From a virus: 27,868 nucleotides of DNA. This document shows, piece after piece, positions 5,784-27,523 of the stretch. The DNA lies in the IMG/VR virus record IMGVR_UViG_3300032287_003461, positions 1 through 27,868 of that record. One strand, written 5' to 3'. The notes beneath the pieces are model-generated. The model was not told the origin of the DNA. It saw only the letters and a list, made by a program, of their open reading frames with translations, and ran no database searches. Each line of letters starts with the position of its first letter. Within the stretch, counting starts at the first letter, position 1. A program made the translations under genes and the position numbers.

Positions 5784-5834
5784 TGACCTCAACAAATAGT
5801 ATAAATTTAAGTATAATTAAAAAAGTAAAAGACA

Positions 5835-7025
5835 ATGGCAAAAACAAGTAAAAAAACGAACGCGACTGTATCATTAAATGTCCACGAATTAAAGGACTTT
5901 TTGAAACACATTATTGATAACAACCGTTATCTACAAGAAAACAATAAACCAATGGTATCAACCGAAGTAATAGGTGATAGTGGTATTGGTAAAACATCTT
6001 CTATCGTCCAATTAGCAGATGAATTAGGTTTAAATTTCGTTAAGTTAAACTTAGCTCAAATTGAGGAAATAGGTGACTTAGTAGGTTTTCCAATTCGTCA
6101 ATTTGAAATGAAAGATAAAAAATTATCTGAATGGGTAGATGAAAATTCAGTTGAGGACTATCGTAAGAAAGGTTATGAGGCTACAGGTTTGAATCGTATG
6201 AGTTACTGTCCACCTGAATGGATTAGTGGTAAATCAAATGGTGGTATTCTATTATTGGATGACTGGAATAGAGCTGATATGAGATTCATTCAAGCTGTAA
6301 TGGAGTTAATTGATCGTCAACAATATATTAGTTGGAAGTTACCTAAAGATTGGCATATCATTTTAACTGCTAATCCTGATAATGGAGACTATTTAGTTAA
6401 CAGTATTGACAACGCTCAGAAAACAAGGTTTATTAGTGTTAATTTAAAGTTTGATCTTAAATGTTGGGGTAAGTGGGCTGAACAAGCTAAACTAGATGGT
6501 CGTTGTATTAACTTTATGTTAATGCATCCAGAATTAGTTACTAAAGAAGTTAACAGTAGAAGTGTTAGTATGTTCTTTAATAGTATTAGTTCACTTAAAT
6601 CGTTTGAAGATTCATTACCATTAATTCAAATGATTGGAGAAGGTAGTGTTGGTAGTGAGTTTAGTACTTTGTTTACAATGTTCATTAATAATAAATTAGA
6701 TAAGATGATTTCACCAGAAAACATCATGACTCAAGATGAACAGTATGTAATGAATACCTTAAAAGGTTTAGTTGGTAAAGATAAAGCCTATAGAGCAGAT
6801 ATTGCCGCTACATTAGGAACAAGGATTGCTAACCATTTAGAGTTCTATTCTAAGGATAATGCAGTTGAGAAACCATTAATTGAACGTATCAGTAAAATTG
6901 TTACCGAGAAAATATTCGCAACAGATATTTGTTATAATATGGTTAAGTCAATTTATAATAGTAATCCGAATAAGTTTAAGTTAATGATGTTGAATAAAGA
7001 ATTAGTGAAATATATAACTAAATAA
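5835..7025 (+). CDS. MoxR-type AAA+ ATPase
   Basis: This 396-aa ATPase has Walker A GDSGIGKTS (residues 47-55), Walker B GILLLDDWNRAD (about 137-148), sensor 1 in LTANPDN (177-183) and a likely arginine finger in QKTRF (205-209). The DDWNRAD and TANPDN forms are typical of MoxR/RavA-like AAA+ proteins. These hexamers partner with VWA-domain proteins to remodel or activate client complexes. The C-terminal 170 residues are helical, as in the lid and tail of the family. It lies 51 bases after the 119-aa gene and is followed by a terminator-like hairpin at 7049-7080, so it probably closes the block. The assignment is firm; the client is unknown. Confidence 0.92.
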   Translation: MAKTSKKTNATVSLNVHELKDFLKHIIDNNRYLQENNKPMVSTEVIGDSGIGKTSSIVQLADELGLNFVKLNLAQIEEIGDLVGFPIRQFEMKDKKLSEWVDENSVEDYRKKGYEATGLNRMSYCPPEWISGKSNGGILLLDDWNRADMRFIQAVMELIDRQQYISWKLPKDWHIILTANPDNGDYLVNSIDNAQKTRFISVNLKFDLKCWGKWAEQAKLDGRCINFMLMHPELVTKEVNSRSVSMFFNSISSLKSFEDSLPLIQMIGEGSVGSEFSTLFTMFINNKLDKMISPENIMTQDEQYVMNTLKGLVGKDKAYRADIAATLGTRIANHLEFYSKDNAVEKPLIERISKIVTEKIFATDICYNMVKSIYNSNPNKFKLMMLNKELVKYITK

Positions 7026-7048
7026 TACAGGTTCGTTACTTTTACTAC

Positions 7049-7080
7049 AACTCCCGATCCTGCAATATGGGTTGGGAGTT
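7049..7080 (+). terminator. Intrinsic terminator-like hairpin after the MoxR gene
   Basis: AACTCCCGATCC (7049-7060) pairs over 12 positions, including two G.U wobbles, with GGGTTGGGAGTT (7069-7080) around an 8-base loop. A T-rich tail, TGTTATT, follows. It stands 24 bases after the MoxR stop codon. Confidence 0.75.
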
Positions 7081-7135
7081 TGTTATTAATACCGACTTAA
7101 CCCCGCTTTAAACGGCTATCTCCTATGGTTCATAT

Positions 7136-7147
7136 ATATTTATATAA
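7136..7147 (+). promoter_or_regulatory. Late-promoter-like motif upstream of a structured non-coding interval
   Basis: The 12-mer ATATTTATATAA is identical to the one at 9595-9606, just before the late structural operon. It lies 119 bases upstream of the next start codon (7267) but only about 36 bases before a T-tailed hairpin begins. It could therefore drive a short RNA or, by read-through, the glutaredoxin operon. Confidence 0.45.
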
Positions 7148-7152
7148 CAGTA

Positions 7153-7246
7153 TTTACCCCGTTAAATCCCCGGTAAAGGCCGATGGAAAAGTTTGGATGA
7201 CCTCGACTAGGAGTTTGGAATCCCAGGATATTTTCCATATTTTTTT
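7153..7246 (+). ncRNA. Candidate small RNA between promoter-like motif and T-tailed hairpin
   Basis: Downstream of the promoter-like motif the sequence becomes locally GC-richer and foldable. TTTACC (7153-7158) pairs with GGTAAA (7172-7177). ATGGAAAA (7183-7190) pairs with TTTTCCAT (7231-7238), enclosing GGAT/ATCC (7195-7198 with 7220-7223) and CCT/AGG (7201-7203 with 7209-7211). A run of seven T follows (7240-7246). No start codon in this stretch opens a convincing frame. The 5' end is a guess based on the motif position. A long untranslated leader for the gene at 7267 is the main alternative. Confidence 0.4.
7183..7246 (+). terminator. Hairpin followed by T-run
   Basis: An 8-bp perfect outer stem (7183-7190 with 7231-7238) encloses a 40-base, internally paired loop and is followed by ATTTTTTT. 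It ends 20 bases before the glutaredoxin start. It would terminate transcripts coming from the left or from the motif at 7136-7147. The long loop makes it an unusual terminator. Confidence 0.55.
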
Positions 7247-7266
7247 ATAGCACTAAATTAATTAGA

Positions 7267-7584
7267 ATGAGTAATAGAGGAATGAATGGAGAAGTAGGAG
7301 TTAGAGTATTAACGTTAAGTGACTGTGATTATTGCATTTGGTTGAAAAGTGAATTAGACAGTTGCGGAATAGCCTATGTCGACATTGATGCTAACAAATT
7401 TGATGACTTCTCTGATAAGGTTGAACAGGAATATAAAACTAATAGGTACCCAATAGTGTTTATTGAGACTAAACAGGACACAATTGTTATACTGGGTGAG
7501 ACAGAGTTGGCTACCACAGATAAATTACGTACATTCGATACAATACCTGAATTGGTATCAATGATTAAAAAATATATAAAATGA
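7267..7584 (+). CDS. Glutaredoxin-like thiol-disulfide oxidoreductase
   Basis: This 105-aa protein has the thioredoxin fold pattern of glutaredoxins: a beta strand VRVLTL, then the active site CDYC (residues 20-23), a helix, a strand AYVDIDAN, and the cis-proline loop RYPIVFI (about 59-65). The usual CPYC has Asp in place of Pro at the second position. Phage glutaredoxins typically reduce ribonucleotide reductase to supply deoxynucleotides. An alternative start at Met-6 exists. The TGA stop overlaps the next gene's ATG (ATGA). It stands behind the structured interval at 7026-7266, which may control it. Confidence 0.85.
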   Translation: MSNRGMNGEVGVRVLTLSDCDYCIWLKSELDSCGIAYVDIDANKFDDFSDKVEQEYKTNRYPIVFIETKQDTIVILGETELATTDKLRTFDTIPELVSMIKKYIK

Positions 7585-7757
7585 GATATAAACAACCAAT
7601 CGAAAGAAAATTAGATCAATTAGATAACATGTTAATCGGATTTGGAGCGCAATTCTCAGATCCAAACTTCACTATTGTACTTGCTAAGGATATGCTTAGT
7701 GAGCTAAAGAATAAAGTTGAAGAAATTAGAACATTAATCAACTCAGAACAAGACTAA
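7581..7757 (+). CDS. Hypothetical 58-aa helical protein
   Basis: ATG overlaps the TGA of the glutaredoxin gene, and the frame ends in TAA. The 58-residue product is helical: a first amphipathic stretch (ERKLDQLDNML), a short loop FSDPNF, then a long helix with hydrophobic heptads (AKDMLSELKNKVEEIRTLI). It probably folds as a helical hairpin or a small coiled coil. No family is recognised. Coupled translation with glutaredoxin suggests co-regulation, not necessarily joint function. Confidence 0.65.
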   Translation: MRYKQPIERKLDQLDNMLIGFGAQFSDPNFTIVLAKDMLSELKNKVEEIRTLINSEQD

Positions 7758-7775
7758 AATAAAACAATAAAAGTT

Positions 7776-8549
7776 ATGCTAACACCAGAACAAATCAAAG
7801 ACAATTGGGATAAATTTCTATCTAATATAGAACTATATATCTCAGAACCACGTAAACAACTATTACTTGAGTTTTATACCAGACACGAGGAACGCTTCAT
7901 TATGATGCCCGCGTCTCATAAATCTCAGTATCATAACTGTTTCCCAGGTGGTTATGTCGACCATGTAAATAGAGTAGTAGCTGCTGCCTTAACATTCAGC
8001 ACTGTATGGCATGAGTTTGGAATGATAGACACTTATACAACTGAGGAACTAGTATTCTCAGCTATCAATCATGACTTAGGCAAATTTGGAGATGAACAAA
8101 ACGCAGCGTATATTGAACAAACAGACCAATGGAGACGAGATAAACTAAACGAAACTTATATGTTTAATGATCGTTTAGAATATATGACTGTTCCTGATCG
8201 TGGTTTACATTTGTTACTTAGTAATGGTATTGTACCTACTAAAAACGAAATGATAGCTATCAGAACTCATGATGGACTATATGATGAATCAAATAAGGCT
8301 TACTTAATGGGTTTCACACCTGAAACTAAGCCTCGTACTTCACTTGTATATGTTTTACATCAGGCGGATTTAATGGCAGCTAGAATTGAGTTTGAAAAGG
8401 AATGGTTACCTAAGTTATTAGGCCCAAAACAAGAAACACCTAAGAAAGAAAGTAACTTTAAATTAAATAAAAACAATTCGGCTGTAAAGCAAAAAGCATT
8501 AAAATCTATGTCTAATCCTGCTTTAGCCGAGCTAATGAAAAATATATGA
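7776..8549 (+). CDS. HD-domain phosphohydrolase
   Basis: This 257-aa protein shows the HD-superfamily metal-binding order: His in GGYVDHVNRV (H63), the doublet HD in INHDLGKFGD (H99-D100), a further His in RTHDG (about 165), and Asp in LHQADLMAARIE (about 198). HD proteins hydrolyse phosphomonoesters or phosphodiesters such as nucleotides, ppGpp or cyclic dinucleotides. The close link to glutaredoxin fits nucleotide metabolism, and degradation of a host signalling nucleotide is an open alternative. The last 45 residues are Lys/Asn-rich and look flexible. Its start is in the AAAAGTTATG leader context, and its stop overlaps the next gene. Confidence 0.82.
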   Translation: MLTPEQIKDNWDKFLSNIELYISEPRKQLLLEFYTRHEERFIMMPASHKSQYHNCFPGGYVDHVNRVVAAALTFSTVWHEFGMIDTYTTEELVFSAINHDLGKFGDEQNAAYIEQTDQWRRDKLNETYMFNDRLEYMTVPDRGLHLLLSNGIVPTKNEMIAIRTHDGLYDESNKAYLMGFTPETKPRTSLVYVLHQADLMAARIEFEKEWLPKLLGPKQETPKKESNFKLNKNNSAVKQKALKSMSNPALAELMKNI

Positions 8550-9594: not shown

Positions 9595-9606
9595 ATATTT
9601 ATATAA
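9595..9606 (+). promoter_or_regulatory. Late-promoter-like motif at the head of the structural block
   Basis: ATATTTATATAA lies between the sigma-factor stop and the ATG at 9616, with 12 bases from TATTTATA to the start codon. It is identical to 7136-7147 and nearly identical to 23890-23901. Confidence 0.55.
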
Positions 9607-21900: not shown

Positions 21901-23888
21901 TTGTTAATAAATACAATTACAAAGACTATATTCGTTTGATTGAATTCTTCCATAATTCATTATTTAGAACACTTAAAGACTTTACACCAGCTAGAACTAA
22001 TTTAGCTACAGGTATTGTTATTAAACCACATTTACTTGAAAGATCTGTTATATACAGAAGTGAACCTACATTTACTTCATTTGATGTAACTGCTTCAATT
22101 AATACAGCATTTATAAGTGCTAGTAATAGTGGTAATTATAGTCAATCATTATACCCAATAACTTATCAAGGTTCATTTGGTAAGGTTACTGTAACATCAG
22201 ATGCAAGAGATTTCTTTACTGGAGTATTACCAAGTGCATCTATTAACATCCATGATCCTTTCCTATCAGGATCTTATAATCCGTATAATAGTTTTAATCC
22301 AAATAGCACAAGTTCATTCTCAAGTTCAGTTTGGAATTATTCATATAATCCGTTATTTAATAATGTTAATACTTCTTCTTATATATCAAATATAAGAAAA
22401 AAAATAACTTATATCACTAGTGGAAGTAAATTAGTTCAAGTACTTGAACCATACGCTATTCAAGACTTCACTTACGAATATACTCGTCATAATAGACCAA
22501 GATATTTTGGTTCTAGAACAACAAGTGCTGATTTTAATTTTTATAATGCTAGTACTGATTATAGTTTTGGTATATTAGGACCATTAGGTAAAAATGCTAC
22601 TATTAATGACAACTCAGTTTATTTTGGTTATTTCGCGGAAGCTGTAGCTACAGGTTCTCAATTAATAGGTGCTCCTGAACGTACTAATTTATACTTAAAA
22701 TACTTAATTGATGAAAAAGGTTCATTAACAGAATTATTCCAACGTAATTATGAAACTATAATTGATAGTCAATATTTTGATTTATATCAAGTCCAAAGTA
22801 TTTTCAAACCAGGAGAAACAGCAAATATATCTTTATTTGATAATCAATCCCCATCTCATCAAAAATCATTAGATGGAAACCAATCAATATTTGCTAGTGG
22901 TATTAAATTTTATCCAACCTTATGGAAAGTAAATAGTGGAAGTTTTGGACAAATATATTCATTACCATCAGGTAGCTCAACATCAGCTTATTTACAACCT
23001 ACTAATTATAGACTTATTAATTATAGAGTTCGTACTCTTGTAGGATGGGGTGGTGTTGATATAAGTATTGAAGGTGATGTTAATTATTATCCAGGATCAA
23101 CTCCAGTAGGATATATACCTTTTGATGTTACCGCTGAAGTTTATCTTGACTTTGGGCTTGGAGGCTCACATATAATATTACCAGTATTAATACCAGCCAG
23201 AAAACCAGATGGCACTCCAAATTATTCAGGACATTTTAGATATGATAGAGGTTGGACAGTAGTTAATAATACAGAAATAATAAGAGTACGACCAACTCAA
23301 GGTATTGATAATGTAGTTAAATACTATGATACAGATGGTGCTCCTCAATTAACTGTAAATTCTTCTGATAAACGTATAGTATCATGCTCAGCAATGATGT
23401 CTACATACTACAAAGATGGACTTTATATGTCTGCTAGTATTGTAACAGGAAATGCTAATGTGGATCCTACATTAAAACTATATAATTCATTTACCCCTCT
23501 TGACTATGCTTTTAAACTAAACCCAGGTGATATTGTTCGTTTTGATAAAGAACAACTTGGTACAGTAGCTACAACTAGATTTAGACCTGAAAATGAATAT
23601 ACTATCCTTGAAACATATTCTACAGGATCTGTTATAGCATTTAGATTAGATAGAGAAGTACAAAATGAAGTAACTGCTAGTGGTACTCCTTATAAAATTG
23701 ATAGATATGTATTCTCAAGAAAAATAGTAGATGAAACAAACATAGTTATCAATCATCAAAAAGCATTAGGACAAACCTCAGCAGGTATTGTTAAGAATGT
23801 TGATTTACGTCCTGACATTGATAAAAATGTAGGAAACATAGTAAGTGATCTGAAGAGTAAGATATTTAGTACAGTTCTGAAACAATAA
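18993..23888 (+). CDS. Giant baseplate/tail protein with LamG-like domain, 1631 aa
   Basis: This is the largest gene of the window. The N-terminal about 500 residues are beta-rich. Residues about 539-580 carry YKRLYHNLPLLLKSKGTNRF and FGIPSTIMGSLEYGG, a signature I recognise from large tail proteins of Bacteroidota phages. Residues about 625-800 look like a LamG/concanavalin jelly roll (GIEFRFKASPSYATTQSLFY, then SWYNVLVQRR, then SIQEVRLWSYKLNEDVF), a fold that often binds carbohydrate. Residues about 966-1005 contain FVNKYNYKDYIRLIEFFHN followed by LKDFTPAR. The remainder is beta-rich. Its size and place suggest the slot of T4 gp7, the large wedge protein, though homology is unproven. It is likely a baseplate component that also touches the host surface. 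Confidence 0.78.
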   Translation: MPNTVTNISSTSNILSGSISNLVASKEMVRNFNASTDYVEMSVLNPIGTLLLNIPDFKGYTIPVIGPQKVGDISVQELSFNPVTDLSNLGLNNGEFIVQYNILEPQIVRSNNKPFFIKEISANRTEIRLSTNTINTATLQSNFFDFQLNFQANTYFKEFYINLGRNVLLPGINAALDLGPSTQTVNPTTGEVTSTLSGTPTVLVKLLNPLPLSIKVNTLVSIVDLLSNPQIFNVKVSPEPIPVVYPSLRGPNFDLDLDQLRVGPTPYYNFTQVTSFQGTFAPQLQQLLGHLSASNFHVNVDYTNYEDFVHYSSAARRLDGFQYKLTNIELYTSSSASAAQSTSPSAPADAASFQGKINSVIQSFDGYEQYLYYNSGSYTYPKQNSTKPYINYSVTSSQAITWYSSSYTSASLYDDNNQNYLLYTLPGYINENTDNELAFKFVATVGQMFDDIWIHIKAITDLYKAKNALDQGISKDIVYFALQSMGINVYTDQDGKDVFQYLYGVNADGTFKPQVASYQTLISASNYQLSGKDQQEGIYKRLYHNLPLLLKSKGTNRFVQYLNTIFGIPSTIMGSLEYGGVDKVTSSFEYEYDRFNYALQTSGSSNVSIPWTYVSQSKTRTTFSDIVPDGIEFRFKASPSYATTQSLFYSGSNLKLDVLYANTGSSNSIYVNTIGNFGYFQFKLGTTVVTSSTIPIFTTGSDGDTSWYNVLVQRRTPNLRIGQTSTSQTYDVYIKNNVWGAVGHVASASLTTAFPASNSLWYTQGAMTFGGGSFPFSGSIQEVRLWSYKLNEDVFNSHVLNPESIEGNTYTSSFSDLVARWPLGNNLYTYNHTLTSSVASVAPDQNIQAFTASFASFPNKNNYTSFTETYYADVANSGYASPVTDKIRIVSGSTYGTQLLPNKSIVTPDLIPITKDIHLLDASLSPQDEIDRAIIAAFGSSYSIDDIIGNPATGSYYELQPIQNEFFKKFVNKYNYKDYIRLIEFFHNSLFRTLKDFTPARTNLATGIVIKPHLLERSVIYRSEPTFTSFDVTASINTAFISASNSGNYSQSLYPITYQGSFGKVTVTSDARDFFTGVLPSASINIHDPFLSGSYNPYNSFNPNSTSSFSSSVWNYSYNPLFNNVNTSSYISNIRKKITYITSGSKLVQVLEPYAIQDFTYEYTRHNRPRYFGSRTTSADFNFYNASTDYSFGILGPLGKNATINDNSVYFGYFAEAVATGSQLIGAPERTNLYLKYLIDEKGSLTELFQRNYETIIDSQYFDLYQVQSIFKPGETANISLFDNQSPSHQKSLDGNQSIFASGIKFYPTLWKVNSGSFGQIYSLPSGSSTSAYLQPTNYRLINYRVRTLVGWGGVDISIEGDVNYYPGSTPVGYIPFDVTAEVYLDFGLGGSHIILPVLIPARKPDGTPNYSGHFRYDRGWTVVNNTEIIRVRPTQGIDNVVKYYDTDGAPQLTVNSSDKRIVSCSAMMSTYYKDGLYMSASIVTGNANVDPTLKLYNSFTPLDYAFKLNPGDIVRFDKEQLGTVATTRFRPENEYTILETYSTGSVIAFRLDREVQNEVTASGTPYKIDRYVFSRKIVDETNIVINHQKALGQTSAGIVKNVDLRPDIDKNVGNIVSDLKSKIFSTVLKQ

Positions 23889-25678: not shown

Positions 25679-26875
25679 ATGTCAGCAAATGTGTATAAAA
25701 GACTTAGTGTATCTGATACTTTCGTAGTACCATATACAGCGAATAAAAGCTGGGATATCACCTCAGGGTCTTTTACAGCTAACAAAATAACTGTTAACAT
25801 AGGGACTAACTATAGTGGATCAATATTTGATCCAACTTCAGAATATATTACTAATGGTCAATACGATAGATTAGTTTACGACTCTATCAATATGACTTAT
25901 TATCCTAATTTTTTACCTAGATATGTTGATATATCATCTAGGCAAAATACTTTGCTTAATGATGGTACATTAACAACATCTTCTTATTTTAGAGGACATG
26001 TTGAATTAGGTAACGCTAATACAATAAAATATTTTCCAACTGGTGCTAATGCTTCTATTTATGTTTTAAATATACCTAGAAACTTAACTAGTGATAAAAT
26101 ATTACCTACTACTTTTGAAGCTTATTTTGCTACAGGTTCAACATCATTTAAATTATATGATGATGGAAACTATAATTTACTTTATAGTGGAAGTAGTGTA
26201 GTTTCATCTATTGGAACTACATTAACTTATGGTTCTCAAGTTGGTAATGTATTTTACGAACAAAATGTAGCTATAATAACTGTTATTCCTAATAGTATAA
26301 GACAAACAGCTTGGAGAGGAAGTAATCCATATTGTATTCAAGCATCTCCTTCTCCTAGTGTTACACCAAGTATAACACCAACTATAACACCGACAGTAAC
26401 ACCATCTGTTACTCCGACAATAAGTGTAACACCTAGCCCAGGAAATAGTCCAAGTACTACTCCAACTATATCTGTTACACCAACTATAAGTGTAACACCT
26501 ACAATTAGTGTAACACCAGGCACAAGTACACCACCTTCACTTAGTGCAACACCAACAATAAGCGTAACCCCAACAATAAGCGTAACCCCAACAATAAGTG
26601 TAACCCCAACAATAAGTGTAACCCCAACAATAAGTGTTACACCAACAATAAGTGTTACACCATCTGAAACACCACCCGTTACACCTATAGAATCATCAGC
26701 TGTTTGTTATAGTTATGTAAACTATACTGGAGGTATGGTAACTGTAAGTTACGTAGATTGTAATGACTTTACTCATAACAATGAAATGGTAGGTCAGTTA
26801 GGTTCTATATGTGTTAAATCATTTATTGGTGGTAATGGAGGTATGACTAACGTAAATCAATTCTGTACTTCTTAA
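25679..26875 (+). CDS. Tail-fibre-like protein with TISVTP repeats, 398 aa
   Basis: The N-terminal 215 residues are beta-rich, with [20 protein letters not shown] (about 122-141), a short stretch [13 protein letters not shown] and [16 protein letters not shown] associate this with T4-like fibre or baseplate-attached proteins of Bacteroidota phages. Residues about 221-338 are low-complexity Thr/Pro/Ser/Val repeats, ending in six exact TISVTP hexamers. A C-terminal domain of about 60 residues has four cysteines and beta strands ([19 protein letters not shown]). A stalk with a Cys-bearing tip is likely, which fits receptor contact. The Pro/Thr stalk could be glycosylated by the host, though that is speculation. 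Confidence 0.75.
26341..26690 (+). repeat. Thr/Pro/Ser/Val-coding degenerate repeat region
   Basis: This block of degenerate 12-18-base units encodes TPS, TPT and SVTP motifs inside the fibre-like gene. It gives way at 26555 to exact 18-base tandem units. It probably encodes an extended stalk. Confidence 0.85.
26555..26662 (+). repeat. Six tandem 18-bp units encoding TISVTP
   Basis: Six consecutive 18-base units start ACAATAAG at 26555, 26573, 26591, 26609, 26627 and 26645. They differ only at a few wobble positions (AGCGTA, AGTGTA or AGTGTT; CCCCA or CACCA). Units 1-2, 3-4 and 5-6 are pairwise identical, which points to recent unit duplication. Copy-number change keeps the reading frame. 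Confidence 0.93.
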
Positions 26876-26877
26876 AA

Positions 26878-26889
26878 ATATTTATAAAA
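26878..26889 (+). promoter_or_regulatory. Late-promoter-like motif before the second repeat protein
   Basis: ATATTTATAAAA lies in the 15-base gap, only 4 bases (from TATTTATA) before the ATG at 26891. As at 14089, a transcript starting from it would be leaderless or nearly so. Confidence 0.4.
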
Positions 26890-26890
26890 A

Positions 26891-27523
26891 ATGAGTAATA
26901 CAGGATTTAAAGCATATACAAACCTAGAACAATACTATGTAGATAGTGGTGTGGCTACAGGTACTACTAAAACAAATAGTATTAGTGATCCTGACTATGT
27001 TGCTCCTGTTTATGACACTAATTATTGTCCTTTACCATCTTTATCAGCTACACCAACACCAACAGTAAGTATAACTCCAAGTATTACTCCTACAGTAACA
27101 CCTACAGTTACACCTAGTATAAGTGTAACACCAAGTATTGGTGTATCGCTTTCAGTTAGTGTAACTCCAAGTAAAACACCAGCAGTAAGTTTAACACCTA
27201 CAATTAGTATAACACCTACAATTAGCTTAACACCTAGTGTAACACCAAGCGTATCAACTAGTCCATCTATTTATTACCATTATAGTGGTGATAGATATGA
27301 ATGTGTAGGAGGATATTGCTATTGGGTAGAATCTACTACTATCGCAAATAAAAATCCAATAAATATTGACGCAGGTAGGTATTATTATGATTATGACAAC
27401 TGTTATATATTTACTGTTGCATATTCAATACCACCAACAGCATCATTAATAACCAATATAACTGATGCTGGAGTTAAAAACTGTTCTTTATTATGTAATG
27501 TAATATGTGGTAATACTCCGTAA
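26891..27523 (+). CDS. Second Thr/Pro-repeat fibre-like protein, 210 aa
   Basis: A short N-terminal part (1-49) contains NLEQYYVDSGVATG and DPDYVAPVYDTNYCPLPS. This is followed by a Thr/Pro/Ser/Val/Ile repeat stalk (about 50-128) of the same style as the upstream gene but more diverged. The C-terminal domain of about 80 residues has seven cysteines and aromatic residues (YECVGGYCYWVES, then DNCYIFTVAY, then CSLLCNVICGNTP). The two adjacent genes share the stalk type but not the tip, which suggests modular host-contact proteins. There is no catalytic motif. Confidence 0.72.
   Translation: MSNTGFKAYTNLEQYYVDSGVATGTTKTNSISDPDYVAPVYDTNYCPLPSLSATPTPTVSITPSITPTVTPTVTPSISVTPSIGVSLSVSVTPSKTPAVSLTPTISITPTISLTPSVTPSVSTSPSIYYHYSGDRYECVGGYCYWVESTTIANKNPINIDAGRYYYDYDNCYIFTVAYSIPPTASLITNITDAGVKNCSLLCNVICGNTP
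27040..27270 (+). repeat. Thr/Pro/Ser-coding degenerate repeats in second fibre-like gene
   Basis: Degenerate short units encode ITPS, VTPT and SVTP, similar in sequence to 26341-26690. There is no exact 18-base array here. The similarity could allow recombination between the two genes. Confidence 0.8.

Follow-up and report, generated by a model that had tools for sequence, protein, structure and literature searches.

A probable insulated dual-promoter control region ahead of the glutaredoxin operon in an uncultured Flavobacterium-type T4-like phage

In a virus record of 27.9 kb (as a whole, hereafter the window), the gap at 7026-7266 between a MoxR-like gene and a glutaredoxin-like (Grx) gene probably serves the Grx operon as an insulated control region with two promoters. 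In the arrangement that we propose, a hairpin behind the MoxR gene, found to be under selection, would mark or protect the end of the upstream transcript; the box TATTTATA at 7137, assigned to its class by sequence statistics, would start a late transcript; and the element TTTGG-N19-TATTTTTT at 7214-7245 would give rise, from about position 7250, to a transcript of early or middle type. Among relatives with a long leader, a hairpin ending at the T-run found there can form in the late RNA, and late transcription may in part stop at that point. An initial annotation of this DNA had offered two guesses for the gap, namely a self-contained small-RNA unit or a controlled leader for the glutaredoxin operon, and it is the second and better of these that holds up.

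The gap is preceded by the gene for a MoxR-like AAA ATPase (5835-7025, plus strand; phrog_1297, with Pfam AAA_5 matched at the cut-off) and followed on the same strand by the Grx gene (7267-7584; PF00462), which heads the downstream operon. Its earlier description as the only long non-coding gap is roughly right, although two further intervals, 1406-1650 and 2467-2659, would count as long non-coding gaps too if their short ORFs are not genes. The gap contains no tRNA and no Rfam family at either gathering or loose thresholds, a sigma-70 promoter scan gave no excess over shuffles, and no DNA match to 6900-7800 was recovered from phage records. Scanning IMG/VR with the MoxR protein yielded 80 loci, 53 of which carry a Grx match beside MoxR (54 with the window's own record); as the sequences are related, these and the following counts across relatives are not counts of independent events. 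The contigs of the relatives are partly fragments, and ORF calling in them followed a simple longest-ORF rule. Their gaps fall into size classes of about 240 nt, to which the window belongs, of 650-1040 nt with at least one extra gene, and of 116-136 nt; this short class also includes longer gaps that hold other small genes. Among cultured phages, the nearest relative found is the Flavobacterium phage immuto (NC_055915.1, 160 kb), with a baseplate wedge protein that is 48% identical.

The first of the two promoters, TATATATTTATATA (7133-7146, plus strand), has its core TATTTATA at 7137-7144, with the Grx start codon following 130 nt further on. Here the initial annotation had placed a start signal, based on the 12-mer ATATTTATATAA at 7136-7147, and the same 12 letters do recur at 9595-9606 ahead of the next gene block, where the core (9596-9603, plus strand) lies 20 nt before the first gene. 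With up to two mismatches allowed the 12-mer is as common as in shuffles; the core itself matches the plus strand of the window six times, in every case in intergenic DNA (6/6, with 0.4 expected), and its minus strand not once. The remaining copies in the window are found 11-28 nt ahead of a start codon, against 130 nt for the copy before Grx. In immuto, TATTTATA precedes 24 genes at a distance of at most 60 nt, as against 6 for its reverse complement; many of the 24 are structural, and they include those for terminase, portal, sheath, tube, hub and tape measure. The proposed start signal is borne out by this strongly intergenic and directional distribution, which identifies TATTTATA, on sequence grounds, as a directional late-type promoter of this phage group; that it would act late is suggested by the genes that follow it.

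In T4, late promoters are served by the gp55 sigma factor. The element described here resembles them in having a single -10-like box without a -35 box ahead of structural genes in T4-like phages, and TATTTATA is, as in the T4 type, a directional AT-rich box just upstream of such genes. It differs in its sense-strand core, where the middle AA is replaced by TT: as T4 late promoters read TATAAATA (PMC3014915; the T4 late promoter scaffold is given in PMC7892883), TATTTATA would represent a variant of the T4 late promoter with different letters. A literature search on late promoters of Bacteroidetes phages found nothing relevant.

The second promoter, TTTGG-N19-TATTTTTT (7214-7245, plus strand), lies 53 nt before the Grx start codon, with a predicted start near 7250 and hence a leader of about 17 nt; the other intergenic sites listed for this class lie mostly at 44-80 nt. 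In the relatives the pattern YTTGG-N-TATATTTA has 24 sites at N=19 and 0-1 at each other spacing from 8 to 31, and with N19 it is absent from their opposite strand. For immuto, GTTG-N-TATATTTA was found 20 times at N=20, once at 21 and never at the other spacings tested, which amounts to an identical geometry, the count being shifted by one base. The element upstream of Grx is present in 54 of the 54 Grx loci and in all 43 distinct upstream sequences. Its TTTG-N20-TAT(T)TTT geometry is that of promoters of the Bacteroidetes primary sigma factor, sigma-ABfr (-33 TTTG / -7 TAnnTTTG), for which the host consensus has been given as TTTG / TANNTTTG, the -7 box occupying -12 to -5 and reading TAHHTTTG in F. 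johnsoniae (PMC6847099). A further likeness is the start codon close downstream, and the closest cultured relative infects Flavobacterium. A promoter of this type would start its transcript 4-5 nt past the -7 box, here near 7250 by prediction. TTTG-N20-TATTTTTT matches seven of the eight letters of the host -7 box, at a spacing common to the phage promoters; it departs from both the host TAHHTTTG and the phage consensus TATATTTA at the last base, where the host has G, the phage consensus A and the window T. Within the spacer, TTGGN4CCA and CCRTAT are conserved at the Grx operon only and not in the other promoters of the phage. As the pattern ACTTGG-N4-CCA...CCGTATNTTTGC found no match in bacterial genomes, the full Grx element is not a general host promoter. 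In class and geometry 7214-7245 is thus recognizable as a -33/-7 promoter, which would be expected to be active. The initial annotation had instead seen a stop signal at this end of the gap, a reading that gives way because the element matches the -33/-7 promoters of the phage exactly in its geometry and retains its boxes where the T-run is broken (L013, L014) or the stem lost (L044, L046, L119).

The structural features behind that reading, an 8-bp stem (7183-7190/7231-7238) and seven T at 7240-7246, are indeed present in the window. The 8-bp stem is poorly kept in relatives; an extended hairpin formed by GGAAAAGTTTGG (7185-7196) and CCAGGATATTTTCC (7223-7236) before the T-run (7185-7236 as a whole, plus strand) is a possible terminator of the long-leader class. 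Across 20 long-leader sequences 92% of its pairs are kept, with 9 cells changed on both sides, and its covariation score is higher than that of any of the 500 shuffles or of any slid control; it is absent or different in L013, L014, L044, L046, L119 and the short class. Since this hairpin covaries, in long-leader relatives only, the 7214-7245 region, besides its proposed role as the Grx promoter, may also terminate. One stretch would then both end late transcripts and start early-type ones, an arrangement that we regard as plausible at Grx, if somewhat short of an even chance, because the extended stem covaries and because nested hairpins exceed shuffles elsewhere. For instance, certain promoters of the relative G016 and of immuto have a GC hairpin filling the -33/-7 spacer and ending in T's, and hairpins of at least 6 bp occur in the -33/-7 region at 10 of 55 sites in the relatives (null 1.0, sd 0.95, maximum 5 in 200 shuffles) and at 8 of 37 in immuto (null 0.35, maximum 3). 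Against this, the stem at the Grx site itself is weak, mostly A-U, and lost in some relatives. Early-type promoters in which a T-run abuts the -7 box after a terminator-like spacer hairpin can be seen in immuto at 22068 and before 68018, and in G016 (168 kb) at 100280 and 113016. A literature search on promoter-terminator overlaps in phages found nothing relevant.

At the left end of the gap, the 12-bp stem hairpin that had been noted at 7049-7080 (plus strand) is present, and a combination of folding, a synonymous-codon test and pair counts indicates that it formerly lay within the codons of a gene now lost. In the relatives with a 650-nt gap, an intact gene of the T5orf172 family starts at the MoxR stop; it is intact in L003, L004, L010 and others, and its L003 version matches PF10544 (T5orf172) with an e-value of 4e-16. 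The window keeps only a relic of it (7031-7112, plus strand), comprising two pieces at about 7031-7090 and 7092-7112. In an alignment made by eye, the window hairpin corresponds to the codons around TPDPANPGWEF of this gene, with the flanking parts missing; the left hairpin is, as judged from this correspondence, a remnant of a T5orf172-family gene. We compared the folding of the codon stretch with that of 300 synonymous-codon shuffles per gene. All 17 distinct gene copies in the MoxR-Grx gap fold far better than their shuffles (z -2.4 to -7.6), with mostly 0-4 of the 300 shuffles folding as well (11 for the weakest copy), as against none of 12 homologues at other places (z -1.5 to +2.6). Changes on both sides are seen at three pairs of the hairpin, in copies with differing amino acids too (PHNE, LQEA); the gene-less copies keep all 12 pairs and have no such changes. 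Relatives without the gene here display unrelated hairpins at the same place; in the short class the hairpins there are different ones, several with a real T-run abutting the late promoter. The excess over synonymous shuffles, the pair changes and the replacement hairpins of the short class together show that a hairpin at the MoxR-Grx junction is under selection. In six short-gap relatives (L093, L097, L144, L173, L025, L039) a T5orf172-family gene lies about 2.5 kb upstream of MoxR, without a codon-embedded hairpin.

What the left hairpin does is less direct: it might terminate, protect or process the MoxR transcript. That it is an ordinary intrinsic terminator, present here by chance, is possible but rather doubtful. 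A terminator scan does score it as terminator-like, and the T-runs beside the late promoter in several short-class relatives are as expected of terminators. However, in the gene-bearing relatives the hairpin sits within codons ~34-50 of the next gene without a T-run, where a full terminator would keep transcription from upstream out of that gene. In the window its U-tract, TGTTATTAAT, falls short of that of a terminator, and simple termination is disfavored on this account. Of the earlier proposal that the hairpin closes the MoxR operon, the insulation is retained and the simple terminator is doubtful. T4-type homing endonucleases provide a partial parallel, with mRNA hairpins known for I-TevI and segB of T4 and for mobE of Aeh1 (PMC3014915), in that both cases associate an RNA structure with a nuclease-family gene of a T4-like phage. 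Unlike those hairpins, the one described here lies in codons ~34-50 rather than across the start site, is confined to one genomic place and outlasts its gene.

Between these elements, and overlapping the late promoter, the long class conserves both the sequence and the rigid spacing of a non-coding block of about 100 nt (7107-7207, plus strand), which contains TTTGGATGACCTCGACT. An alignment of 27 sequences revealed no conserved fold on either strand (alifold z -1.0 on plus, -0.8 on minus), and a DNA site fits the block better than a folded RNA. The block recurs in two other contigs (L212, 1640-1766; L213, 2337-2463), where it is inverted relative to the neighboring genes, adjoins or lies upstream of a putative prohead-core gene, has nearby a short relic resembling the 3' end of T5orf172, and is accompanied by neither the late promoter nor the Grx element; a pattern scan of bacterial genomes did not find it. 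These features invite the interpretation that the block is a protein-binding or recombination site belonging to a T5orf172-gene module, and that the gap is a decayed mobile module: the spacing is rigid without a conserved fold, the second location combines opposite orientation with a T5orf172-like relic, and in most gene-bearing relatives the block is directly 3' of the T5orf172 gene. We consider this unlikely, given that copies of the gene elsewhere lack the block downstream, that the gene has another flank in L014, L044 and L233 (the L119 contig), and that the L212 and L213 contigs, both of them fragments, yielded no T5orf172 gene.

The block also overlaps TTTG-N2-TGACCTCGACT (7192-7208, plus strand), which matches the upstream half of a further class of phage promoters but has no -7 box at N13. 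This third class, TGACC-N13-TAHHTTTA, has 58 sites in the relatives (five contigs) and 3 in the window, with 0-2 at each of the other spacings. It appears to be the main early/middle-type class, exemplified by TGACC-N13-TAAATTTA at 5784-5809 (plus strand), 51 nt before the MoxR-like gene. The other window sites are at 1440-1465 and 1596-1621, and in close relatives this is the most frequent promoter class. T4 middle promoters combine a MotA box with a -10 box. The TGACC class is comparable in having an upstream box at a fixed distance from a -10-type box; unlike in T4, the box sequence is unrelated to the MotA box and the host -33 TTG is retained. Within 1406-1650 of the window, two near-identical promoter copies of the form TTGACCGCG...TTTATTATATAATAAG stand about 155 nt apart and flank a short ORF, which possibly codes for a 51-residue membrane peptide with a TTG start. 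The idea that relatives without the leader TGACC box lack TGACC promoters genome-wide was not borne out.

The remaining alternative is a free-standing small RNA of about 95 nt, running from the late promoter at 7137 to the terminator hairpin and T-run at 7240-7246, with the -33/-7 match being secondary. It could draw on the pairing and covariation of the extended hairpin in the 20 long-leader sequences and on the high sequence conservation of the block, yet we judge it improbable. The block lacks a conserved fold, relatives with short leaders have no such stretch or RNA, five relatives (L013, L014, L044, L046, L119) are without the hairpin and yet have the promoter boxes, and in L212 and L213 the block recurs without a late promoter. 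No complementary target of at least 11 nt was found in the window or in the close relative G009, and antisense targets of the leader did not rise above chance. The initial annotation had described a foldable stretch here; 7148-7250 folds no better than shuffles (z 0.03), and the whole gap has a z of -0.88. It had also taken conservation of the hairpins in relatives as decisive for a self-contained RNA of roughly 90 nt: the left one is conserved, the right one only in one class. A leader hairpin, TTTACC-13 nt-GGTAAA, looked compensatory in comparison with L044 and L046, and pair counts over 20 sequences gave no covariation; likewise, in an alignment by eye, the frame of a short ORF from the ATG at 7197 is not kept in relatives. 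A conserved free-standing small RNA is therefore not supported. Phage-encoded non-coding RNAs of the kind first envisaged do have a precedent in RNAC and RNAD of T4 (PMC3014915), but those sit in a tRNA region.

Returning to the insulated dual promoter, its two less usual elements can be combined into a more general proposal for T4-like phages of Flavobacterium, which we put only slightly below an even chance: that a terminator hairpin lies inside the -33/-7 spacer of the promoter of the next operon, and that a junction hairpin is carried in the codons of an inserted nuclease-family gene, to be kept as its main relic or replaced by unrelated hairpins. The junction also constitutes a clean natural experiment in which a hairpin is selected for its genomic place, first inside codons and later without them. 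The late, -33/-7 and TGACC classes amount to a sequence-level promoter map for widespread uncultured T4-like phages of the Flavobacterium type, which can be tested in the cultured phage immuto. Elsewhere in the window, two adjacent proteins with long repeats are encoded at 25679-27523, where the tail gene block ends.
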